Shown here: one piece after another, positions 3,229 to 57,735 of the stretch
How positions within the stretch are numbered: position 1 is the first letter of the stretch
Layout of the letters: the number at the start of each line of letters is the position of its first letter
Source: Diabrotica undecimpunctata
Lineage: Eukaryota > Arthropoda > Insecta > Coleoptera > Chrysomelidae
Assembly: GCF_040954645.1 (NCBI RefSeq)
Contig: NC_092806.1
Coordinates: 128,858,952-128,922,951 of the forward strand
Direction of reading: 5' to 3'
DNA: 64,000 nucleotides
Position numbers and translations under genes: made by a program
Notes under the pieces: generated by a model
Databases searched by the model: none
What the model was told of the DNA's origin: nothing
Seen by the model: the letters and a program-made list of their open reading frames with translations, nothing else

Positions 3229-3244
3229 AAGATATTAGTGACAA

Positions 3245-3537
3245 ATAGGTAAAAGAAATAAGAATAAGACTTACTCACGATCTGTTTATTCTACCACCAA
3301 CATTGTGTGTACGCTGACAGTAAAAACCGCGTGAAGCAACAGCAGGAAACTCCACCAACGGGCCTTTGTGATGTCGAAATACGCCTAGTTAGCAGGCTAG
3401 AGTCTCGTTCGTTATCGGAATTAACCAGACAAATCGCTCCACCTACTAAGAACGGCCATGCACCACCACCCACCGAATCAAGAAAGAGCTCTTAATCTGT
3501 CAATCCTTCCGGTGTCCGGGTGAGGTTTCCCGTGTTG
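3245..3537 (-). pseudogene. Antisense arm of 18S rRNA fragment
   Basis: Read on the minus strand this is the stretch of eukaryotic 18S rRNA from the AACACGGGAAACCTCACC region onward, through GAGAGCTCTTTCTTGATTC and CTAGCCTGCTAACTAGGCG to the GTTTTTACTGTC region. A few bases differ from the sense arm, including a short deletion around 3518-3525. The inversion with respect to 3539-4020 makes a hairpin-forming inverted repeat with a spacer of about 184 bp. Confidence 0.9.
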
Positions 3538-3538
3538 G

Positions 3539-4020
3539 AACTAGTTCTAACCATAAACGATGCCAGCTAGCGATCCGCCGACGTTCCTTCGATGACTCGG
3601 CAGGCAGTGTCCAGGAAACCAAAGCTTTTGGCGTCCGGGGGAAGTATGGTTGCAAAGCTAAAACTTAAAGGAATTGACGGAAAGATACCACCAGGATTGA
3701 AGCCTGCTGCTTAATTTGAGTCAACACGCGAAACCTCACCAGGCCCGGACAACGGAAGGATTGACAGATTGAGAGCTCTTTCTTGATTCGGTGGGTGGTG
3801 GTGCATGGCTGTTCTTAGTTGGTTGAGCGGTTTGTCCAATTAATTTCAATAACGAACGATACTCTAGCCTGCTAACTAGGCGTATTTCGACATCACAAAG
3901 GCCCGTTGGTGGAGTTTCCTGCTGTTGCTGCACGCGGTTTTTACTGTCGGCGTACACACAATGTCGGTGGTAGAATAAATAGATTGTGAGTAAGTCTTGT
4001 TCTTATTTCTTTTACCTATT
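3539..4020 (+). rRNA. Partial 18S rRNA copy (pseudogene)
   Basis: The sense arm starts within the universally conserved CTAGTTCTAACCATAAACG block. It continues through GGGGGAAGTATGGTTGCAAA, AACTTAAAGGAATTGACGG, GCTTAATTTGAGTCAACACG, GGATTGACAGATTGAGAGC and GATTCGGTGGGTGGTGGTGC to an arthropod-type variable region near 3890-3960. This covers only the middle-to-late third of 18S, with no 5' or 3' end, no 28S and no spacer. Substitutions at normally invariant sites (for example AAAGATACC where GGGCACC is expected near 3682) show that it is not under selection. It is a dispersed rRNA pseudogene, not part of an rDNA array. Confidence 0.92.
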
Positions 4021-4065
4021 TGAAATGGACTCATACAGGCAACATATTCAAGATATTAGTGACAA

Positions 4066-5632
4066 TTAAAACATTTTTGATTGAATGATTCTATTGTCAG
4101 GTGATTTTTGACATAATCTTGTAATTATTCTTCGATAAACTGCTGCGGATGAACTAAAGTACTTCTACAATCGTGAAATTTGTGGCGGCACTTAAAGACA
4201 AATGACAAAATTTATATTCCATGCATATATTAAACAGAGTCGGAGCCAGCTTATTTCCCTGTTTTAGCTCTTTATTTATCTGGAAGTGGTCTGTTAATTG
4301 GTTTTGGACTCGTATTTGTGCTTGCGAAGAACGGAGATGTATAGGAAGAAGATAGGTTTCTTGGCTAAAAAGCAGTTGTAAATGGACTTAGATAGCAAAT
4401 GGGGGATACCAAAATATTTCATTTGGCAGAAAATCAAGACGCCTTCGTAACTTGAGAATCCACGGTTCGTATTGATTGTATTATGTCCCATACGCGGCAA
4501 GTTAACTTAATCGTCCCAAAAATATTTGAACAGATTAAAAAAAAATTCAAGTGACGTCACTGACAATTTTTTCATTTATTGATTTTATATACATAGATGA
4601 AAAAACACTTATCTTGCTGTTTAGTCTTAGAGGAAACATGCAACAGGTTTCAGATATTACCATAAAGATATATAGAAAAATGTTGCTTTATCACTTACAT
4701 ATTTGCATTTCTATTAGGCTGATTTTCAAATAATTATTTGTATTTGTATATTATGCTTGTCTGAGCACCGATTCAAGCAGTAATTCTAGTTCTAGGCCAA
4801 GAGCAAGTCGACCGTGTCTAAATGTTTTCATTATGGCCAAGATTAAGTGTGAAAATGTTGCAAATTAATTTTGTTACTACATAAACTAGATATAACGTAA
4901 AAATAAAAATGAAAGGAAATGCTGTTATTTATCAACATGTAGATAATTAATTAGTTTGTTGACGTCAGCTGGAAGAATTTTCTTTATTAATCATGTATAT
5001 TTCATAAGAATAGCTTTAAGCAGAAAAATAGTTTAATATGGAATGAAACTTTGATGTATTAGATTTTGGTATGTATTATATAGGTATTAAGCAATCGATA
5101 AAGCGAAATAAACAATTGAAATTCTGCCTTCGATGAGGCGAAAATAAACCAAAAATCCATTACTGTAAATGCCATATTATACGTTATTTTACTATTAAAT
5201 TAAAAACAGGTAAGGACCGTTAAATTATAAGAAAAAGTGTGACAATTTGATTGAAAAAGTATGGAAAATCCTTTAAAATGAGAGTTTGTAAAGATATTTT
5301 TGTTAATTTGTTGATTAATTATTGCTAAAATATTTTCAAAAGTCTTAATTAATAAAAAGGTTTGCTTAATAGTTACTGCAAAATTGAAATTGTTTATGCC
5401 ATAAACCATTTATCTACAAAGCTATTGTGCGTAAACTGTTTACTGGGTTTTCGTTAATTCTGAAAGCAGCGAATTGAAGAGCAATGCTTATATTATCAAA
5501 TTAATCATTTAACGATTAAAAAGTTTACGTTAAATATTGTAAAATAGGTCTTTAAAAGTACTGCGATTTTATACTGATAAACATAAATAACTTAGACGCA
5601 TCAACATGTAGGAAGTAATTTTTTTTATAAAC
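4066..5632. other. Unassigned A+T-rich DNA
   Basis: Short open frames here (4294-4500 minus, 4551-4733 plus, 5200-5409 minus) have no domain and look like chance. No repeat family was recognised. Confidence 0.45.
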
Positions 5633-10190: not shown

Positions 10191-12306
10191 TATAGGCAAA
10201 ATGCATTTTTTGCCTATTTTGCCTATTATAATTGTTTTTTGCATTTTTTGCCTTTTTTCGTAAATTCCGCCTATTTGTTCCTTTTTTTAAATTTCATGGT
10301 ACTACCCGTGATATTATTCTATTACTAAACCATTCTATAATAAAATTTTGGGTCAATAATAAAATATCAATGGTTTGTTTATATAACAGATTTCTAGGAA
10401 AATGTACCTGATCGAGACTTGAGGGTTAACTATTTGGAAATCCCTAAGCTTTATTAGTTTATTATCAGTTGTACAGTCGGTGACTGTATAAGAGTTTAGT
10501 CATAAATTGCTATATCCTAGTTTAGTTTTGTTGCGTATACCGAAAAGCAAAAAACACGTTTTAAAACGTTTTAGACATTTGCGTGAAAAGATGACATCTA
10601 AATTAAGGCTATGGATCGCACCTTATTCGGAACTTTCTCTAGGAGATGGAGCATTTTGTAAACCATGCGGCAAATCGGTAAATTTTATTTATTTTATTTT
10701 CTCTTTTTTTCTCGTTCCACAACATAACTAAATTCTAAAGGTTTTAGACTTCTAATTATTTTTTTTAAATTCTCAGATTTCAAGTAGAAAAAAGTGCTTT
10801 ATTGACCAGCATTGTGCGACCCCACTTCATAAACGTAATATGGAAAAATTAAATTCCTCTAAGTTAGCCCAAATATCCCTGCGGGATAGTTTAAGCAGTT
10901 CAAAAAAAAAAGGAGGAAGTTTTAAATGCTTTTTCGAAAAATATCTTAATAAATCCTTACCGGACGAGAGTACATTGAGAAAACATACTGTGGAAAAATG
11001 TTATGTGGAATGTATTTCAAAAATTAAGCGGGAGTTAGAGGGCAATTTTTTGTATATTATCGTGGATGAAACGACAGATGTATGCGGCAGGTATATAGCT
11101 AATTTAATGATTGGAATTTTGAACGAAAACTATGCGAGAAAACCTTATTTAGTTGCCGTTAAAGAATTGGAAAAAACAAACAATTTAACAATAAGTCGAT
11201 TTATACAAGATAGTTTAACAAACCTCTTTTTACCCAACGCTATACCAGTGAATAAAATAGTTTTAATGCTTTTAGATGCTGCTGCATATATGTTAAAAGC
11301 TTCTGTTAATTTAAAGATTTTTTATCCTAATTTAATTCATTGCACTTGTGTAGCCCATGGGGTAAATAGAATTTCTGAAGAAATAAGAAATCTGTTTCCG
11401 TTGGTAAATAATTTTATAAATTTTATGAAAAAAGTTTTTGTAAAGGCTCCGTTGAGGGTGCAAATATATAAAGAAAGACTTCCCGGTGTCCCTTTGCCAC
11501 CTAAACCAGTAATTACGAGGCGGGGAATCTGGCTCGAAGCAGTTTTTTTTTACTTTAAACACTGCAATGAAATAGAATTAGTTATGTCAGAATTTGATGA
11601 TAATATTTCCGAAGCCATTCGAGAAGCAAAAAAAAATATTAAAAAATCCCAAATTGAAACAGGAACTCGCTTATATCAATGACAATTATAAATTAATATT
11701 TACCACAATTACCATATTAGAAAAACCTGTGATGAAAAAGAGATAAATTTATGTGAGTCAGTAAAATTAATAGATAATTTAAAGACGAAAATTAAATCGG
11801 CACCTGGAAGTAATGGTCAATTAATTTAAAAAAAAAATGAAATATGTTTTCGACAAGAATGAAGATTTTTCGTTTTTATCTATTGTTGCTAAAGTTTTGA
11901 ATGGGACATTTTCCGAGGAATTTCAAATTATGCCAGATTTATTATCCGCTCTGAAATATGCTCCAATTACATCTGTCGATGTCGAACGTTCGTTTTCAAT
12001 GTACAAATTAATTTTAAGTGATCGAAGACATAGTTTTAAGACAGAAAATATTGAAAAACATTTAGTTGTTTCTATTAATGATAAAATTTTAAGTGGTTAC
12101 AATGTTTAATTATTAATTTACAGTTATTTAGTTACTAGTTTATTTATACTAATGTTATGATTATGATGTGTAAATATACCTGCCTTAAGTTAATATTACG
12201 TTAATTCACTTTGTACAATAAATAATAAGTTATATTCCTTTATTGCCTATATTTTGCCTAAATGTTAATATTCCTGCCTTTTTTAATAAAAATCTTTGCC
12301 TATATA
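10191..12306 (+). mobile_element. hAT-family DNA transposon, degraded
   Basis: The element is bounded by short inverted ends: TATAGGCAAA at 10191-10200 and TTTGCCTATA at 12295-12304. Both ends carry several copies of a TTTTGCCT or TTGCCTA word (10206-10252 and 12242-12300), likely subterminal transposase-binding repeats. Between them lies a broken hAT transposase with a BED zinc finger. I could not identify an 8-bp target duplication, so the exact outer bases are uncertain. The transposase would cut and paste the element; here frameshifts and an in-frame stop show that it is dead. Confidence 0.8.
10591..12109 (+). pseudogene. hAT transposase with BED finger and one intron
   Basis: Exon 1 (ATG at 10591, or at 10507 in the same frame) reads WIAPYSELSLGDGAFCKPCG. 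A GT-AG intron is inferred at 10678-10776 (donor GTAAAT, acceptor TTCTCAG). Splicing joins the frame to ISSRKKCFIDQHCATPLHK, which completes a C-x2-C...H-x5-H BED zinc finger. Exon 2 runs on to a stop at 11682 and contains IIVDETTDV (first catalytic Asp) and LLDAAAYM followed by HCTCVAHGVN (second acidic position and the hAT C/H motif). A frameshift near 11660 and another near 11725-11740, then a stop at 11827, lead to the C-terminal dimerisation domain at 11837-12109 (SVDVERSFSMYKLILSDRR). The third catalytic acidic residue could not be placed. Confidence 0.85.
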
Positions 12307-13457
12307 GGCGCCTTTTTCTTCAATTTTTGTTGTTATTAATTTTCTTCTTGTTATTAATATGGGGTTGCATCTATTCCATCTTATGATTCCTTCTTATCAT
12401 AAGTATATGTTATGCATATTTAGGTTATTATTCAATTTTTATAGGCATTTCTGTACGTATTTTACCATATGGTAATATCTTGTACTTTATTTAGTATATT
12501 TAAGGGAAATTGACTGCCATTTCAGTAAAAAATTATTTATTTTACTTATTTATTTTGACGTTTTGATTTCCAATTCTAAAATTTTCGACTTGTGCTAGGT
12601 TAGGTACTTATACTTTCTAAATTTTTCTAAAACTTTTCTAAATTTTCAAAATTTAATGACTGATAATCATGGGTATACAAAAAAGTGGCATACTAGGTAG
12701 TACCTACTGTAGATTAGCGTGAAGCTTCATACTAATTTTCGGTATTTTTAAAATTTAAATAATAATTTTAAAATTTAATAGAGTAATTTTATTATTTAGT
12801 TATTATTTATATTTTAAACAATTGGTTTGCTAGTAGCGCCACCTACTAATGTATCAACAAAGCGTACGTTATTTGCTTCTGACAGACCCGCCAAAGGCTA
12901 AATATTAGATTGTTATAAACCAAATAGAGAAAACAAACCCAAGAGAGAAAATAAAGGAAAGAAAGAGTGCAGTTCGTAGCTCTACCAAGATAGACTAGCA
13001 CAAAACACTGTGTAGGCCCCAACAAAGAATATCACCACGATATCCTACTAAAATAAATCAATAAAAAACATAAAAAAGGCCTCGGCCAACAAAAAAAATT
13101 AAAAAAAACAAAAAAGCCATCCAAAAACATTAATATAATCCAAAAACTGGGCACATAGGGCCCAAACTCTTGAGCACCAAGTCTCCGAACTAGACGTCGA
13201 AATTTCAGTTCTGCGGATAAGTTACATAAGGATCACAGGAGTAAAGCGCGTCACGCTGTCTCGAATTTAAAATCGATTAGGGAACCATGTTGGAGTTCTA
13301 TCACACTCTAACGTATTGTTACACTCTAACGTAATTCTAAGGGATGAACATGTCTCATAGGCTAGGTTTAATTAAATCTCTTGCTTGCTTGCTTAAATTA
13401 TTATTAAAATATAAATAAATATCAATAGATAGGAAATTTAGTCATTATATAAAATAA
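12307..13457. other. Unassigned A+T-rich DNA
   Basis: No gene or repeat family recognised. A short local repeat of a CACTCTAACGTA word occurs at 13304-13331. Confidence 0.4.
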
Positions 13458-14109
13458 ATAAGATGTTTAAAAATTTCATGACGCTACTCGGAACGCCGTT
13501 TTGTTGCGCTTTTTTTGCGACGCTCACCTCATCAGTTTACTATAGAGAAAAAGTAATATAATACCAGTATACAAACTAAGCTTCAAAAATTTCAATTTTT
13601 AAATTTTTTTTTTCTATTTTGAAGGTTTTATGTACAATGTAAGGGGTTGAAAAACATTGAATAAGAAAAGGCTTGTTTTCCCCTCTATTTTTGTATTTTG
13701 GCTATTTTGCGGCAAGAGTACTAAATTAAAACACTTTTAACCAGTCGTATCTTATAGAAAATTTAGTTATCGCAATTTTTTTCAGTATAACTTTGCTCCA
13801 AAATGAATCGTTTTAAAGTTTTAAGCAAGAAAAGTAGAAAAAATTAAATAAAATTGAATAATAAAATTAATTTTATTATTAATTAATTAATCTAAAAAAT
13901 TTTTATTACACTAAAATAATTCTTAATAATAATTTATCAAGCTGTTTGTTTTGCAAGTTTTAGAAGACACAGTGGTAAAAATTTAAATTCGGTTTCGCCA
14001 GGTAAAAATCGTTTGATTTCTCTTTTTGGTTTTAGATGGCATAGTTACGTCCGTAAATAGTTATTTTGATAAATATTGGTTTAGGACGGGAAAGATTTTT
14101 GTTTTGATT

Positions 14110-14181
14110 CAGAGCAGTCCCTACCGCTCTGAGGAGACCTAAAGAGGTCGAAATACGTATAAGCGACTTGCCGCTGCCCTG
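14110..14181 (+). ncRNA. Type I hammerhead ribozyme, copy 1
   Basis: All core elements are present. CUGAGGA (14129-14135) matches CUGANGA. Stem II is GACC/GGUC (14136-14139 with 14146-14149) with loop UAAAGA. GAAA lies at 14150-14153. Stem III is the gapless palindrome AUAC/GUAU (14153-14160), and the cleavage triplet is AUA with scission predicted after 14161. Stem I has a proximal helix CGCU/AGCG (14125-14128 with 14162-14165). After an internal loop it has a distal helix CAGaGCAG/CUGCcCUG (14110-14117 with 14174-14181) with one mismatch. The very short stem III is typical of retroelement hammerheads that cleave as dimers. Activity is predicted, not shown. Confidence 0.85.
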
Positions 14182-14497
14182 TATTGAAAAGAAAATCTAA
14201 TACCGTCACTATGTTTTATTACTTTACTCCGTTTGGAGTACCAGAAACTGAATTCACTACGAATTTTGACCATGATGAACGGAAGGTGGAATGCAATTTT
14301 TAGATTCCCTTGCCGAGTAATTTATCAAGCTGTTTGCTTTGCAAGTTTTAGAAGGCACAGTGGTAAAAATTTAAATTCGGTTTCGCCAGGTAGAAATCGT
14401 TTGATTTCTCTTTTTGTTTTCATATGGTGTAGTTACGTTCGTAAATAGTTATTTTGATAACTACTGGTTTAGAACGGGAAAGATTTTTGTTTTGATT

Positions 14498-14571
14498 CAG
14501 AGCAGTCCCTACACAGCTCTGAGGAGACCCAAAGAGGTCGAAATACGTATAAGCGGCTTGCCGCTGCCCTG
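14498..14571 (+). ncRNA. Type I hammerhead ribozyme, copy 2
   Basis: The design is the same as in copy 1. CUGAGGA is at 14519-14525, stem II GACC/GGUC at 14526-14529 with 14536-14539 (loop CAAAGA), GAAA at 14540-14543 and palindromic stem III AUAC/GUAU at 14543-14550. Cleavage is predicted after A14551. Stem I has a 3-bp proximal helix (14516-14518 with 14552-14554) and the distal 8-position helix 14498-14505 with 14564-14571. The differences from copy 1 fall in loops or at the weak fourth pair of stem I, so the fold is preserved. Confidence 0.85.
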
Positions 14572-15154
14572 TATTGAAACAAAAAGCTAATACCGTCATT
14601 ATATTTTATTACTTTACTCCGTTTGGAGTACCAGAAACTGAATTCACTACGAATTTTGACCATGATGAACGGCAGGTAGAATGCAATTTTTAGATTCTCT
14701 TGCCGACTAATTTATCAAGCTGTTTGCTTTGCAAGTTTTAGAAGGTACAGTGGTAAAAATTTGAATTCGGTTTCGCCAGGTAGAAATCGTTTGATTTCTC
14801 TTTTTGTTTAAATTTAATTAGTATATAAACTATATAAGATGTTTAAAAATAATAATTGTATTTATATAAAATTATTTTAAAACGAGAAGTGTCATAAAAA
14901 TTTTAACAGATGATTTAATATTGCTATTAATTAGATGACATTTATGACTTTTAAATTTTGACAATCGTTACGAATCGAATCTTTTATTTTCAGATATTCT
15001 ATTTATTTTTTACTTCTTATTTAATGTCTGTATTTTGTTAGTTATTTTTCATGTAGTTTTTAATTTAAATCTGCTAAGCATAAATATATGATTAGTAGAA
15101 ACGAATTGATGGAGAGTAGTGAATAGATGAATAGTGCTATTTCGTGACACTACC

Positions 15155-15250
15155 TGTGACGACGTCCCATGGCGCTAGTTCCGTTACGCTCGCCTCAGCA
15201 TTTTACTATAGAGAAAAAACTAATTCAACGCCAGTATAGAAGCTTCGCTT
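15155..15250 (+). repeat. PLE-associated 5' block shared with 13490-13580
   Basis: TTTACTATAGAGAAAAA and the following CCAGTATA recur in the same order as in the left part of the hammerhead element, each preceded by a CTCRCCTCA word. The block precedes PLE coding fragments here, which links the two elements. Confidence 0.5.
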
Positions 15251-15387
15251 CAAGAAAAGCATACAACCATAGAAGACAAATAAATAGAAATTACAATAAT
15301 ATTAGACTGTGTCTATCCATCTCTTTCTTGATTCTCCTGATTCTAGTCCCACTTTTTCTTATCTATGATATTCTTAAGGTCTTTCTT

Positions 15388-15600
15388 TTATTTGTCACCA
15401 GCAACACGATGCCAACTGCAATGAAGTTTGTATACACCACTGTGTAAGTGCTTTTTGTTTTGGCTCTTGCTGTTTTTAATACATTTGTCTAAGTTGTTGT
15501 TTGTTATAAAGGCTGGCGTTATTCCTTTCTTTTTTATGTGTTTGGCTATTTTTGTAGTTATTTTGCCTGTATATGCACTTGAGCAGAAGGTACTGGGTTT
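15388..15600 (-). pseudogene. PLE fragment: linker and start of GIY-YIG, inverted
   Basis: On the minus strand the frame reads TTKIAKHIKKKGITPAFITN, then KNSKSQNKKHLHSGVYKLHC. This is the PLE linker leading into the start of the GIY-YIG domain (G-V-Y then cysteine). It stops just after the first Y motif, at about 15390. An 88-bp stretch of it (15425-15512) is an inverted repeat of 15641-15728, which belongs to the plus-strand PLE piece next door. Two PLE copies, or one copy with a 5' inversion, meet here. Confidence 0.7.
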
Positions 15601-15633
15601 TTTCTCTGGTGGTGTAAATACTAATTTCTTTCT

Positions 15634-15960
15634 TGAATTGGCTTTTAGAACAAACAACAACTTAGGCAAATATATTAAAAACAACAAGACCCAAAATAAA
15701 AAGCACTTACGCAGTGATGTATACAAACTTAAATGCGGCAGCTGTCAAAAACTTACATTGGTCAAACTGGTAGAACATTTAACAAACGTATAGCAGAACA
15801 TAAAAATTGCTTTCAAGAATAGGAAAACAGATTCTATATACGCACTTCACCTTCTAGATCATAATCATTCTTTTAATGACGAATTTAAATTCTTCACAAC
15901 CAAAATAAAGGCCTTACAATAAAAACACTCTGCCAAATCAGCTGTAGTGATAAAATATTA
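15634..15960 (+). pseudogene. PLE fragment: GIY-YIG endonuclease
   Basis: The plus frame reads LAFRTNNNLGKYIKNNKTQN, then SDVYKLKCGSC. After a 1-base frameshift near 15745 it reads TYIGQTGRTFNKRIAEHKNC (15752-15811). A second shift near 15815 leads to KTDSIYALHLLDHNHSFNDE. V-Y-K-L, the Y-I-G motif, the conserved R of G-R-T-F-N-K-R-I, the E-H pair and the H-L-L-x-H-x-H segment are all hallmarks of the PLE GIY-YIG nuclease. There is no RT domain. The downstream A+T-rich DNA to about 16050 may be PLE 3' sequence, but it lacks the terminus seen at 8606-8712. Confidence 0.78.
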
Positions 15961-16849
15961 TAATAAATTTTGTGGAAGTTTTGAAAACAATATTTTCAGT
16001 GTTTTAAATGTTTTTCCTTTTGCTTTTTATAAACATTTCTATAAAAACAGTACGCCACTGGCAAAGATGGTAAAATCTACACTCGACTGGATTTTTATTT
16101 GAGGTTGGGCACTTCAAATTACATATTTAGAAACCCACTGAGCGATTCTTTAATTTAAAAAATCTGAAAAAATCGACGAACATACATTTTATTGCCCAAA
16201 AACCTTCTGATTTTTTTCAGATTTTTTGGATAATAATTGAGCTCAGGGAAAATAATTGAACTTTTCAAAAACATTTTAGGTCATGTAGGCAAATTTTGGC
16301 AAGCTTCTAAATAATTTTTCTTGGTGTATTTTTCAATGTTTTTAAAGGGCAGAATTAAATTTTTTATTTTCTCTAACTACTAATTAATAAATTTTTCTAA
16401 AAAGAAATTTTTCTAAAACCTTACATTTTTAGAAAAATCTTAATAAATCAAAACACCCTATATTTACGTATAGGGAACCCCAATAAAAGTATTATTTATT
16501 TTTTAAGGACAATTCAAAAATGTCATCAAATATAGCGTGTTCTATCAGAAAAATACCTTTGATATACCATCCTTTTGTGGAGCACCCTATATAATTCACA
16601 TTATTTTTATCTGTAATGTTAATGGTCCTGTATATTTCTATAAAGAAAACACTTTAGATATATGTTTAAATATTTGAGCTAAAATTTCTACATTATACGT
16701 AATATGTTCTTTTTTTCTACTATTCTTGACTATTATATATACTTTTGTCAAATTTTAATCTGAATAACATTCACAAGGACAGTCACTTTTTGGGTTAACA
16801 ATAACGAGTTTTATTAAACCATCAAATAGAATATATTTTTTGCCGGTGC
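15961..16849. other. Unassigned A+T-rich DNA
   Basis: Nothing recognised apart from A+T-rich sequence with short local inverted stretches (for example around 16390-16440). Confidence 0.4.
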
Positions 16850-38676: not shown

Positions 38677-38910
38677 TGGCAGCCGTAGCTCAGTGGCTAT
38701 GTTACCGGTTTAACAAACTGGAGGGTCCGGGTTCGTATCCCGGCACCGACAAAATTTTTAATTTCTAATTCAACTGAGCTGCCAAAGTGCTTCGGAGGGT
38801 ACGTAAAGCCGTCGGTCCCGGCTAGGAAAGTAGTCGTTAACTCATATTAGGGGCGCTTGCGCCACCTGAAAACCTACACTAGACCTTAGCCAGAAGGTTA
38901 CACGAACTTT
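38677..38910 (+). mobile_element. tRNA-derived SINE, copy 2
   Basis: The head (38678-38750) contains an A box TAGCTCAGTGG (38686-38696), an anticodon-arm-like stem CCGGT/ACTGG with loop TTAACAA, and a B box GGTTCGTATCC (38730-38740). The body to about 38910 matches copy 1 (419-666, opposite strand) through GGTCCCGGCTA and the CTAGACCTTAGCCAGAAGG block. The two copies differ at many positions, so the family is not recent. The anticodon position reads AAC, suggesting but not proving a tRNA-Val-like ancestor. No clear target duplication is visible here. Confidence 0.87.
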
Positions 38911-39105
38911 AAAATATTAAATTTTAAAAATATTCTGACACTCGTCAGAAGTCAATGTTAAAGGATTTTATTTTTAAGGGAACTGGCAGATCCCTGCTCG
39001 AAAAAAGGTACGTTGTCCAAACGATGGAAACCAGCCAACTTCAGCCAAACGCAGAGTTGGCTTTTCAGGATGAAATTGTCCAGGGAAAATACTTTTGAAA
39101 CTATA

Positions 39106-39617
39106 CAGGGTGAGTCATGAGGAATTTTACATACTTCTACCATATGTAGAGTCCCTCAGGGAGCATATCATGTGGCCACTAAAAAATGTCAACTCCTCTT
39201 CTTTATTAATTAACAGGGTGATTTGTGTAATTGACCATTTATTTCATTTTACTGTAGTGTTTATACGGCTTATTTGATTTTTTTAATTTTTGCATGATAC
39301 AGTTCACTACTATCAAGCATTCGACTGGTATTAGCTAAACTAAAAAATTCCAGGACTGGCTTTGGAAAAATTAATTTAGGGATTCGTATTCAATATTACA
39401 CCCTGTATATATTTTTTTTTTAAAATACAATAAGTGATTTTCAAACTGCATAAATAGCCAATGAAAACGACATATGCGACAATGTTGTCGCATTTTTATT
39501 AAATTTTTAGTGAACGATCAAATCTTACCAAAAATAGAACAACCATAATGAAGTATCAAATTATAAGGTAATTAATTTAAACAAATGTTATAAATTTCAA
39601 ATATTTTAATTGAAATG
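39106..39617 (+). repeat. Left terminal inverted repeat of the mariner-like element
   Basis: Pairs with 40771-41279. It contains CAGGGTG at 39106 and 39214 and CACCCTG at 39399-39405, plus a small internal palindrome around GCGACAATGTTGTCGC (39477-39492). Confidence 0.9.
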
Positions 39618-39826
39618 ATAAACTGAGTCACTGCACAACAAAAAACAGTAACTCCAATAACGAAGAACAATTTAAAAAAAAACTAAAAATATGTACATAG
39701 TTATGATAAACCCATAAATTAGAACTGGAAAAGATACAATAATGGTAACAAAATAAAAATAATTCAAAATAGATTTTCGAAATGGAACCCTGCAGCCTGT
39801 ACACATTTTTGTTGCCGAATTGTTAA

Positions 39827-40326
39827 TTAACGTATTGAATTACGGATACTCTGGGGATCGTTTCTAATAGTATTACAACAATGTATAATTCTATCAATTA
39901 ATTGTTGTCGGTTATTAATATTCACTGCGTAAACTAGTTGCTTCAATCGTCCCCAAATATGGTAATCAACGGGATTGAAATCAGGGGATCTTGAAGGCCA
40001 CGAAATAGGACCTGCACGTCCTATCCACCTGTTGCCATAAACATTATTGAGATGTTGTCTCACTGCCAGTAAAAAGTGATGGGGGTGCCCCATCATGCTG
40101 AAAATACATCCCTCGGATAGCAACGTTCGCGTTGGCAAGCAAATTCGGCAAAATATTTTGTAGAAAGTTCAAATAGACCTGCCCTGCCAAATGTTGGATG
40201 ACTGGGAGTTCGACGATTAGGAAATCCCATGCGATATTCTCTACTAGCAGCCCTACCATTCCCATTACAGAATCCATAAACAAATATTATGTCTGCATAT
40301 TCTGTAGTCGAAAACTGATGTGGCAT
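39827..40326 (-). pseudogene. Mariner-like transposase, internally deleted
   Basis: The start at 40326 (MPHQFSTTEYADIIFVYGFC) holds the N-terminal helix-turn-helix region, then NGRAASREYRMGFPNRRTP. Within about 15 codons this is joined to the late catalytic core: VYLNFLQNILPNLLANANVA and MYFQHDGAP (H-D-G-A-P, second catalytic Asp). After a frameshift come RQHLNNVYGNRWIGRAGPIS, WPSRSPDFNPVDYHIWGRLK (S-P-D-F-N-P, third catalytic residue region) and the C-terminus. About half of the usual roughly 340 residues, including the first catalytic Asp, is missing. The element is non-autonomous. Confidence 0.82.
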
Positions 40327-40770
40327 TTTAAACGAAAGTAACAAAAGCTCTACCAAAACTAACACAATGTACTTAACGTAGATATGGCAGAAGAAATATG
40401 TATTCTTGTACACATAAATAACAATTGATAATGACAATAATGACAATGGGTATAAAATATCAAGAAACGTCAAACGGTCAACGCCAACCTTCATTTTAAA
40501 CTTTTTTAGATTTATTTTTATTTAGTACAGTTGATGCAATGTATTATTATTTGACATAAAATTTTAATCATTTACAATCAACAAAAACTAACACATACAA
40601 GAGGTTTGACTTTTTATTCAATTTAATTTATTATTTATCGAAAATAATGCCCCAATACGATCTATGAGTAAAAATTTAAAATTGAAAAACAATTGATTCT
40701 ATCGTAGAGATAATACAAAGTGACAGTAAAGATGTTAATTTTTTACGTATTAGATTATGTTGTAGGAACT

Positions 40771-41279
40771 CATTTTAATTAAAATGTTTGAAATTTATAA
40801 CATTTGTTTAAATTAATACCTTATAATTTGATACTTCATTATGGTTGTTCTATTTTTGGTAAGATTTGATCGTTCACTAAAAATTTAATAAAAGTGCGAC
40901 AACATTGTCGCATATGTCGTTTTCATTGGCTATTTATGTAGTTTGAAAATCACTTATAGCATTTTAAAAAAAATTTATACAGGGTGTAATATTTAATACG
41001 AATCCCTAAATTAATTTTTCCAAAGCCAGTCCTGGAATTTTTTAGTTTAGCTAATACCAGTCGAATGCTTGATAGTAGTGTACTGTATCATGCAAAAATT
41101 AAAAAAATCAAATGAGCCGTATAAACACTACAGTAAAATGAAATAAATGGTTAATTACACAAATCACCCTGTTAATTAATAAAGAAAAGGAGTTGACATT
41201 TTTTAGTGGCCACATGATATGCTCCCTGAGGGACTCTACATATGGTAGAAATATGTAAAGTTCCTCATGACTCACCCTG
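40771..41279 (-). repeat. Right terminal inverted repeat of the mariner-like element
   Basis: Inverted copy of 39106-39617. Differences are scattered single bases and short A-tract length changes. Confidence 0.9.
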
Positions 41280-41281
41280 TA

Positions 41282-41819
41282 TAGTATACTATAGAGTAAG
41301 TATCGAGTCTTACATTTACTCTAGTCTACATGTGTACGAATTAAACTATAATCGATCTAACCTCTACACCTCTTCAGGACTATGCATGAATCATTCCATT
41401 AAATTCTATGTTAATTTTGTCGTATACTCAAGAAAGAGCTAGTAAAAAAAGAAAAATCATAGAAGCTACTCGTATTATATCCAATGAATCCAATTGCATT
41501 GCAAATTTCTCGGCAGATTGCATTAGGATCTGGTTACCAATCTTAAAAAAAATCAATGAACAATATCACTATTAGTGAATCAATAACATATCGAGGATAT
41601 ATCATTTATGTTTTAAAACATATACATATCAAATTGAGATAATGTTAATATTGAGAGCAAACTAAAGGTGAGACCAATACTTAGTATTACAATATAGTAC
41701 CATGAGTTTTTTTCTTGGTCTTTGCTTATGACTTGCAATGGAATTACTAATGTGAGAATTTTACTGTTATAATTGGGCACAATTATAACATTTGCCATTT
41801 GCTGACGTGAAAATAAAAT
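41282..41819. other. Unassigned A+T-rich DNA
   Basis: No gene or known repeat recognised. Confidence 0.4.
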
Positions 41820-45250: not shown

Positions 45251-45448
45251 TTTAAATTAATTTATATTTAAATGGGAATAAGCCACAATTAAAGGTTAAA
45301 ATACGTTTATTGACGTTTCATTTTCCACTTCGGAAATCGTTCTCAAAATACAAACATTGTATTTTGAGAACGATTTCCGAAGTGGAAATTGAAACGTCAA
45401 TAAACGTATTTTAACCTTTAATTGTGGCTTATTTCCATTTAAATATAA
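45223..45448. mobile_element. PLE-terminus insert in the DUF7869 gene
   Basis: A 14-bp direct repeat ATTGACTCCTTTTA at 45209-45222 and 45449-45462 flanks a 226-bp insert. Joining across the repeat restores the DUF7869 reading (K-G-V-N-Y-R-A). The insert contains a 93-bp near-perfect inverted repeat made of PLE terminal sequence, with no coding. It is most simply a PLE-derived insertion reduced to its ends. Confidence 0.75.
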
Positions 45449-45450
45449 AT
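45260..45450. repeat. 93-bp inverted repeat, 5-bp loop
   Basis: Arms 45260-45352 and 45358-45450 around AACAT. Each arm has the order AAATRTAAATTT-like, AATTGTGGCTTATT, AACCTTTAATT, ACGTCAATAAACG, GGAAATYGAAACG and TTTTGAGAACGATTTCC as read on its own strand. The same blocks occur at the PLE end 8606-8712, and in part at 22701-22870 and 46428-46540. A transcript would form a very long hairpin. Confidence 0.9.
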
Positions 45451-46050
45451 TGACTCCTTTTACTTTAATAGCTTTCGTCTTGTCTGATTTTTTTATTGTG
45501 ATAGCCTCTTCTTCCCTTTATTTATGGAGTTTCCAATTATTTTTCAAAGAAGATTTGTCTGAGGCATTATAATAAATATTGCACGTAGAGCATTGATCCT
45601 TTTTGGGAATGTGGAAGTATAGATCATACTACTTAAAAATTTATCTATAAACGTTGATGGAAACCGGTGTTATTTTTTCCTTAGGGCAGTACTCGTCTTT
45701 GTACAATCTGTACATAATGAAAAGGTTTAAGTCAGAAGCCAAATAAAGTTTCTTTGTATGGCGACGACTATAATGCGATTAAATTTTAGGAAAACTGTCT
45801 ATATGAATTGTCACGTGATTTTTAGCTGCGTATCGGGTGTAATATTCTTTTCGTCCATTGTAACCTACGTAAGCCCTTCCTGGACCACGGTTTTTACCTG
45901 AAAGCTAATACTAAAACTTGCACAAAAACATTTGAGACACTTTCTGTGTGTCCCCACTGGTGTCACATAATGTGAAAATACGCTATGTTGTTCTTCATGC
46001 AAAATACTCTGACGTTCAGAAGGAATTTTTGTTGAACATTTCAATCTACA

Positions 46051-56169: not shown

Positions 56170-57735
56170 TATAGGAAGTCTACAGTTCAATGATTTTATG
56201 ACAAGATTGGATGTTCAGTTTTGTGAAAACGTCTATGTCGAGGAAATTGAAGGAGCACCCACGAGTTTTTCAGGGGTTTTGAAAAAATATAATAGAAGTC
56301 CTAGTATCTACCGGTATGGATCGTTTGTTTGTGTAAATGTTATACAGTGTAGGTGCCTTTATGCTACCCCAAGCGAGACCGTTCTTCATCTGCTATTCTT
56401 AACATTGAGTGATACAAAAAATATTCTCTTGTGTAGGCATACGCAAATAATATAAGTGAGTTTGTTATCTAAGGGGATATCGTATAGTTTTTCGAGAAAT
56501 ATTTTGTAATTTAAGGTGTCGTAAGCGGCATTTGGATTGAAAAATACCACCCCTGATACCCGATATTTTTCGTACCCATCTTTGATGTGTTGGGTAAGAT
56601 TTAGCATTTGTAATGTACCTGATCTTCCCTATCTATAGCCACTTTTGTCTTTTAATTTGAGCTTTTCTTCAAATATCGGTGAAATCATATTAACGATCTT
56701 GTGCAAAAGTATTTTAAATAGCTGACAAAATAAAGATATTGGCCGATAGTTTTTGTGGTCGTTGGAGTTTTTGCCAGGTTTAAGCAAGGTAACAACTTTG
56801 GCTTGTCTCTAGATTTTGGGTGTTTCCATAATTTGAATACAGTTGTTCATCATCCGGATAAGCCATTGTGGTGTTTTTGGTCCAGATTTCGTAATAAGCT
56901 TTGTGCTCAGATCCTCAATGTCGGTAGTTGTATTATTTTTCATTAAATATGTAGATGGTGGATCCAAGCTCAACATCGTTGAAAGTTTCTCTGAAAGCTG
57001 ACTGGTTTTGTCCTTTCTTACTTTGAGTTATTCTTTGCTTTTTTTCCGACAGAGATAGCATGTCTATATCTATAATGTGGTTTTCAGCGATAAGCTTTAT
57101 TCCAAATACCCTACGTTAGGCCCTATATGTGTTTCCTGCACTAGAAATAAGTCAGATTCGTGTTTAGCGCATATGTCTGATCAGTTTAAGTAAAGTAAAA
57201 TTTCTTGATCTCTAGATATACCCTTAACAGTTATAAACATTATGTTATTAGAATAGTTGGTCCTAAAAAGGACCAATTTGACAAAATCATATTAAAGGGG
57301 TGACTGAAGAATTAGCCGATTAATTATTTAATCATTACCCTGGGTATACCCGATTGTGGTGGTTTTCTTAGTACTTAAATTTTCGTAAAGGCTCGTTCTT
57401 TGAACCCCATAAGTAATGCCTAATATTTTACTTTTTATTGAAAATTTAAATTTTACATGCCGTGTATTACTTTTTGACGATATTTCGAATCAGATTTGTA
57501 TAGTAATAATTTAAGGTATTAAAGAGCCTGTTTGTGGAAAATAAATAAGTTTGTGATATCGTTCTCAACTCATATATAGATAATAAAAAAATAAAAACAG
57601 TTAAAATAGGTGTAAAAAATTTCAACTTCATACATCGGCGCCATTGTTCAGGTGATGGGTTTATCACAGATATCAAAGGTTACATTTTAATTCAAGGTTC
57701 TATTTGCGTGTTTTCAATATTAAAAGAGTAGGAAA
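56170..57735 (-). mobile_element. Jockey-like LINE with internal deletion, copy 1
   Basis: The minus strand reads, 5' to 3': an untranslated or ORF1-derived lead (57735-57250) and a start of endonuclease (SDICAKHESDLFLVQETHIG near 57190-57130). It then passes directly to an RT lead-in (FNDVELGSTIYIF, ITKSGPKTPQWLIRM), TLLKPGKNSNDHKNYRPISL and RT. The middle and end of the endonuclease are missing. A second copy at 62885-64000 has the same junctions. Motif C is not recognisable. The K-P-G-K-x-x-x-x...Y-R-P-I-S-L block assigns it to the Jockey/CR1-type LINEs. Confidence 0.75.
56386..56607 (-). pseudogene. Jockey-like RT motif A region
   Basis: A 73-residue open frame: LNLTQHIKDGYEKYRVSGVV, FFNPNAAYDTLNYKIFLEKL (motif A, the usual F-V-D-L-S-A-A-Y-D-T with Asp changed to Asn at the first catalytic position) and HKRIFFVSLNVKNSR. 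Motif B follows in another frame as NGLAWGSIKAPTLYNIYTN (56380-56320), where P-Q-G-S-V-L-A-P has been degraded. Confidence 0.78.

Follow-up and report, generated by a model that had tools for sequence, protein, structure and literature searches.

Organization of the locus

The window (the whole 64-kb stretch of DNA that we analyzed) is AT-rich, with a GC content of 32%, and contains a small, noncoding, probably mobile element built of 390-base head-to-tail units that carry self-cutting RNA motifs. TRF placed a tandem array at positions 13930-14809 (period 390, 2.3 copies, 94% matches), and a repeat search of the window returned unit spacings of 388 and 390, in agreement with the 388- to 390-bp tandem units of the initial annotation. 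No second array was found elsewhere within the 64-kb window. The features discussed below are as follows.

13434-13474, no strand assigned: left copy of the direct repeat, a putative target-site duplication (TSD); perfect over 13458-13474, 36/41 overall
13475-13929, plus strand: 5' leader, inside the direct repeats; 455 bp, no ORF of at least 120 amino acids
13930-14317, plus strand: unit 1 of the array; 388 bp (TRF, repeat search, and unit alignment)
14093-14196, plus strand: hammerhead 1; long interrupted stem I, core CUGAGGA at 14129-14135, then stem II
14150 onward, plus strand: 3' part of hammerhead 1; GAAA from 14150, palindrome AUACGUAU at 14153-14160, predicted cleavage after 14161
14162-14551, plus strand: RNA that would be expected from double cleavage; 390 nt, from the predicted cleavage coordinates
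14318-14707, plus strand: unit 2 of the array; 390 bp (TRF, repeat search, and unit alignment)
14481-14588, plus strand: hammerhead 2; core at 14519-14525, GAAA from 14540, predicted cleavage after 14551
14708-14809, plus strand: partial unit 3, with which the array ends at its 3' side; 102 bp, lacking a hammerhead
14810-14850, no strand assigned: right copy of the direct repeat, directly next to the array end; no mismatch over 14834-14850
15415-15645, minus strand: possible C-terminal Penelope-like fragment, outside the insert; inverted relative to the next, no match above cut-off
15650-15819, plus strand: possible Penelope-like fragment, outside the insert; enters a GIY-YIG motif in another frame

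The unit is 390 bp long with a GC content of 37%. Units 1 and 2 differ in 26 of 390 aligned columns, two of which are gaps; the third unit is a stub that ends before the motif. The insert (13475-14809) contains no stop-to-stop ORF at the cut-off of 120 amino acids and was therefore counted as noncoding.

Direct repeats and leader

The insert is bracketed by a direct repeat (ATAAGATGTTTAAAAAT) whose copies are identical at 17 of 17 positions; the 17-bp flanking repeat of the initial annotation thus stands, and it extends to 36 of 41 positions. When sequences were shuffled at the composition of the flanks, none of 2,000 reached 17 (the longest was 15) and none of 2,000 reached 36/41. A second control used real window pairs at the same spacing, with start points at 12000-16000 excluded beforehand (2,806 of 3,000 kept): seven of the 2,806 shared at least 17 nt, which puts the chance of such a repeat at about 0.25%, a figure that leaves the abutment on the array end uncounted.

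The leader fills the space from the left repeat to the array, so the insert appears to consist of leader plus array. The earlier description of a direct-repeat-flanked insert is accordingly right about the flanks but not about an insert made of the array alone, since the 455-bp leader shares it. The leader does not match the unit at E 0.05. Its first ∼115 bp are part of a repeat that recurs at 15139-15256 (73% over 118 bp), and this alignment starts at 13473, at most 2 bases from where the left direct repeat ends; this gives the left boundary some independent support, although an alignment edge is inexact. The repeat, with copies at 13473-13589 and 15139-15256, is unclassified and contains TTTACTATAGAGAAAAA. 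A search for relatives with the leader pattern gave 16 loci, of which only three aligned with the leader repeat at E 1e-3, over 19 to 25 bases; we set these aside as chance.

Divergence is higher in the extended direct repeat (5/41) than between the units (26/390), though not clearly so. These values are compatible with one old insertion, and the units may already have differed beforehand.

Hammerhead motifs

With both strands scanned, a type I hammerhead descriptor had two matches in the 64 kb, at 14129 and 14519 on the plus strand; of the 41 CUGANGA boxes in the window, only these two belong to descriptor matches. The descriptor, which was composed after the motif had been seen, though from general hammerhead rules, had no match in 60 Markov-1 random 64-kb sequences that kept the nearest-neighbor composition. 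Rfam model RF00163 (Hammerhead_1) scored the first motif at 28.9 bits (E = 1.3e-4) and the second at 24.6 bits (E = 3.2e-3) when 1.5 kb was searched against 4,227 families; over the whole window the E-values were 0.0054 and 0.14, and per family about 1e-6 and 3e-5. The default-threshold Rfam scan reported no hammerhead because both scores fall below the gathering score of 34. The covariance-model check proposed with the initial annotation was thus divided: below the gathering cut-off at both sites, yet significant by E-value. Judged by E-value and descriptor, both motifs look real, and the two complete type I hammerheads first described are recovered, one in each full unit. Descriptor and folding also point to the same predicted cleavage sites as before, after 14161 and 14551, 390 nt apart.

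Some details of the motif needed revision. Stem II, described as 4 bp, can reach 5 bp in unit 1. The proposed 4-bp stem III without a loop is unable to close in cis; there, two base pairs capped by an ACGU tetraloop make up helix III, which reaches 8 bp only between the two hammerheads. Loops on helix I and helix II are present in the predicted fold. Proximal stem I is 4 bp long in unit 1 and 3 bp in unit 2. Within 14117-14182, three substitutions separate the units: one makes the proximal stem I of unit 2 weaker, and the other two lie at the edge of loop II and in the internal loop of stem I, a loop with two additional bases in unit 2. The core and helix III are identical in both units, which is no evidence of selection because overall identity is 93%; two units are too few to reveal selection on the motif.

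The hammerhead pattern and the unit pattern each had no match in a viral contig collection. The hammerhead pattern matched one locus in a genome contig collection, on a Chlamydiae MAG (L001), where no Rfam hammerhead was found at E up to 1 and proximal stem I pairs at two of three positions by eye; we set it aside.

Predicted folding of one and two units

For the 44-nt flanks 5' of the core and 3' of the cut, predicted stem I energies were −28.8 (unit 1 with unit 1), −33.3 (1 with 2), −26.5 (2 with 1), and −28.0 kcal/mol (2 with 2); shuffled flanks averaged −13.9 to −15.6 kcal/mol, and 1, 0, 0, and 0 of 500 were as stable, respectively. The two combinations used in a dimer are the strongest and the weakest of the four. 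Summed, they give −59.8 kcal/mol, compared with −56.8 kcal/mol for the two cis combinations, so stem I alone barely decides between dimer and cis forms.

Constrained folding of 14090-14595 gave −117.8 kcal/mol for two cis hammerheads and −134.2 kcal/mol for a double hammerhead, a computed advantage of 16 kcal/mol for the dimeric form; the "two cis" constraint comprised helix III and proximal stem I, leaving distal stem I free, and it paired across units. These fold energies lend support to the idea of dimeric cleavage raised in the initial annotation. The unconstrained minimum is −138.9 kcal/mol, 4.7 below the dimer.

What the initial annotation did not foresee is that the lowest-energy fold masks the catalytic core: a hairpin, CAGAGC...GCUCUG, overlaps part of CUGA in both units, and this fold beats the cis hammerhead by 7.2 and 10.4 kcal/mol in the two units. 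The same hairpin is predicted to form as soon as transcription has passed the core, and it persists in the predicted circular 390-mer. The models leave out hammerhead tertiary contacts, which would favor the active form. As a circle, the 390-mer folds only slightly more stably than shuffles do (z −1.8; 4 of 100 equally good), and we dropped its stability as support because there is no strong excess structure.

A possible Penelope-like neighbor

About 0.6 to 1 kb downstream of the insert lies a possible GIY-YIG fragment of a Penelope-like element (PLE), in two head-to-head halves (15415-15819) that are 88.5% alike over 96 bp. Both halves translate to TNNNL...KKHL.S.VYKL.C, and the plus half adds KTYIGQTGR in another frame; this order of motifs is, we presume, like that of the C terminus of Penelope-like proteins. 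Against Pfam, the KTYIGQTGR frame reached GIY-YIG with E = 0.0026 and 18.5 bits, below the cut-off of 22.6. The best Pfam model for the frame at 15650-15790 was a zinc ribbon (E = 0.0022, below cut-off). For the minus half there were only two unrelated sub-threshold models (E 0.08). Protein searches with each PLE-like piece returned no candidate. The PLE label of this region rests mainly on the order of the motifs. Its sequence suggests that a PLE may once have inserted downstream, which is no proof of a PLE moving the array; the nearby fragment makes PLE involvement plausible and proves nothing.

Other features of the window

The ORF list for the window comprises 29 ORFs, and six of the seven that were scanned with Pfam matched reverse transcriptase. 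A DUF659 protein encoded at 10756-11679 had 160 matches; among the 120 listed, 20 carry an organism name, and by our own count and taxonomy 12 of these 20 are beetles, and the best five matches (Abscondita, Photinus, and Brassicogethes) are among them. The other named relatives among the matches listed come from ant, wasp, cockroach, termite, moth, springtail, and tick. From the relatives of this single, transposon-like protein, we take the host to be an insect, probably a beetle.

Several further repeats and RNA-like matches are scattered over the window. Eukaryotic 18S rRNA fragments occur in inverted arrangement at 3242-4146 (minus strand 3248-3546 and plus strand 3709-4146, arms 92 to 94% alike), with a third fragment below cut-off on the plus strand at 3552-3632; this region is probably an rDNA-derived inverted pseudogene. 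The segment at 39100-41285 has terminal inverted repeats of ∼519 bp (97% identity) around a spacer of ∼1.15 kb and is probably a young fold-back element or DNA transposon. A repeat of ∼237 bp is present in two copies, inverted and 90% identical, at 428-664 and 38677-38911; Rfam gives a weak tRNA match that overlaps the latter copy (24.1 bits, E = 1.3, below cut-off), and the repeat is possibly a tRNA-derived SINE. ARAGORN found no tRNA genes in the window. A near-perfect palindrome at 45259-45451 (95-nt arms, 98% complementary, 3 nt between them), with which sub-threshold Rfam miRNA and roX matches coincide, is probably a MITE. Finally, a weak histone 3' stem-loop match on the minus strand at 57235-57279 (26.6 bits, E = 0.0027, below the gathering score) is likely due to chance because it overlaps the end of the repeat copy at 56996-57243.

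Relation to metazoan retrozymes

We interpret the locus as a metazoan non-LTR retrozyme, present as a decayed copy in the genome of an insect that is probably a beetle, and give this reading a probability of roughly 0.7. Elements of this known kind are presumed to move as RNA circles. Metazoan non-LTR retrozymes are described, in the available text of Cervera & de la Pena 2020 (PMC7229834), as giving RNAs of ∼170 to 400 nt, with a GC content below 50%, from dimers upward. According to the same text, they share with our array the type I hammerhead, tandem units of 150 to 450 bp, low GC, and at least dimeric organization; the 390-bp unit, at 37% GC, lies near the upper end of their range (PMC7229834). 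Their TSDs, when present, exceed 4 bp (PMC7229834, in part), which the direct repeat, a putative TSD with 17 perfect base pairs, matches. The helix III of two pairs plus tetraloop resembles that of the axolotl HHR_Amex2 as it appears in the available portion of PMC7229834, where axolotl retrozymes are said to cleave poorly as monomers and HHR_Amex2 far better in dimeric constructs. Unit size, GC content, type I motif, tandem layout, and flanking duplication, together with the weak helix III, match the published class; the retrozyme-like label of the initial annotation is well supported by the anatomy of the sequence.

The locus departs from the class in its leader and its core-hiding fold. A 455-bp leader sharing the insertion is not among the features described for metazoan retrozymes in the available text of PMC7229834. 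The same portion states that the hammerhead is predicted to stay accessible in most animal circles and to be hidden in some mussel circles and in those of plants; unlike most animal circles, our predicted fold masks the core (PMC7229834). Also counting against the retrozyme reading are the Rfam scores below gathering, the 3-bp proximal stem I of unit 2, a circular fold close to that of shuffles, and the divergence of the direct repeat relative to that of the units.

Plant LTR retrozymes resemble the locus, as far as the available part of PMC7229834 describes them, in their tandem hammerheads, circular RNA intermediates, and a hammerhead hidden in the predicted circle, but they differ in having type III hammerheads, a size of 600 to 800 nt, GC above 55%, and a 4-bp TSD; the array has neither a type III motif, nor a 4-bp TSD, nor GC above 55%. 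Among the papers listed for insect and beetle hammerhead repeats in the open-access literature (subscription papers lay outside this scope), we found the cave-cricket satellite discussed below and general retrozyme papers, and no beetle retrozyme. We assign the locus to the metazoan retrozyme class because it shows the sequence features tested (type I motif, tandem unit size and GC content, lack of a long ORF, and a direct repeat above 4 bp), whereas for PLE, plant retrozyme, and satellite a tested feature of the definition is missing here.

The most serious rival, although an unlikely one, holds that the units are pseudo-LTRs (pLTRs) of a PLE and the insert a PLE fragment or derivative, not a separate retrozyme. 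PLE pLTRs bear tandem type I hammerheads (PMC7761336, in part), and what is available of PMC3846280 describes PLEs as forming partial tandems and inverted pieces, inserting with TSDs, and being able to capture unrelated DNA between pLTRs; one studied PLE uses AT-rich sites (PMC11167929, in part). Compared with the available parts of these three sources (PMC7761336, PMC11167929, PMC3846280), the locus is alike in type I motif, tandem layout, AT-rich target, and possible capture of other DNA, and it differs in an insert with no detected PLE coding sequence and a helix III that is not absent. The PLE-like fragment downstream would fit this rival, but it sits outside the direct repeats. No ORF of at least 120 amino acids, such as a reverse transcriptase with GIY-YIG would occupy, lies within the insert, and the unit has no match at E 0.05 to the PLE-side sequence at 15400-16100; for these two reasons, we demoted PLE pLTR from an identity to a rival. 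PLE hammerheads are, moreover, described in the available text of PMC7761336 as minimal, without helix III or loop contacts, whereas the motifs here have residues of helix III and a stem I that is interrupted.

It is considerably less probable that the array is a hammerhead satellite relic produced by unequal exchange, with an accidental direct repeat. The model is pDo500 of Dolichopoda cave crickets, an insect satellite DNA with a hammerhead in each ∼500-bp repeat, for which single and double hammerhead forms have been proposed (PMC2837043, in part), and seven real window pairs likewise share at least 17 nt. pDo500, however, makes up ∼5% of one genome as a satellite (PMC2837043, in part), in contrast to a short insert with a direct repeat and another unit size; a satellite would be a long tandem array, and here there are only 2.3 units, the direct repeat adjoins the array end, and the repeats also enclose an unrelated leader. 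Chance resemblance, or a motif never functional in its family, is very improbable: it could draw on the sub-threshold Rfam scores and the preferred core-hiding fold, but none of the 60 random sequences matched the descriptor, and both units have a long stem I and a complete core.

Proposed origin and implications

Counted from the cleavage site, the first base of the array is unit position 159 and the last is 258. Both ends lie away from the cleavage site, as expected if a circle or multimer was copied rather than a cleaved linear monomer, whose copy would have both its ends at the cut. We propose that in a read-through transcript of the plus strand two type I hammerheads would lie at a distance of 390 nt from each other; double cleavage would release a 390-nt RNA, which a host ligase of the RtcB type may close into a circle. 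The reverse transcriptase of another element, presumably a PLE or LINE, would then copy the circle or a multimer, starting at position 258 and running about 2.26 turns, into an AT-rich target. A template switch to another RNA, the source of the leader, may have occurred before the 5' junction was sealed, leaving the direct repeat behind; alternatively, the leader could be DNA captured with the element, as described for rotifer Penelope pLTRs in the available text of PMC3846280.

The predicted folds allow a tentative and rather doubtful elaboration of the retrozyme reading, namely, that this is a gated, chimeric retrozyme. A single nascent unit would fold into the core-hiding hairpin, which takes up the same strand as distal stem I, and only when two tandem units pair through the 8-bp palindromic helix III would the hammerhead come close in energy; multimers would then be the main source of cleavage, and a circle, once released, would switch itself off and so persist. 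If this is true, the leader would show that retrozyme cDNA can acquire foreign sequence by template switching and then insert it. The choice between dimer and off folds offers a testable explanation for how a circle escapes recutting. As an insect, probably beetle, example with both insertion ends visible, the locus is useful for the study of retrozyme integration: the geometry of the array (2.26 turns) and the leader inside the repeats look like what remains after a circular or multimeric template has been reverse transcribed.
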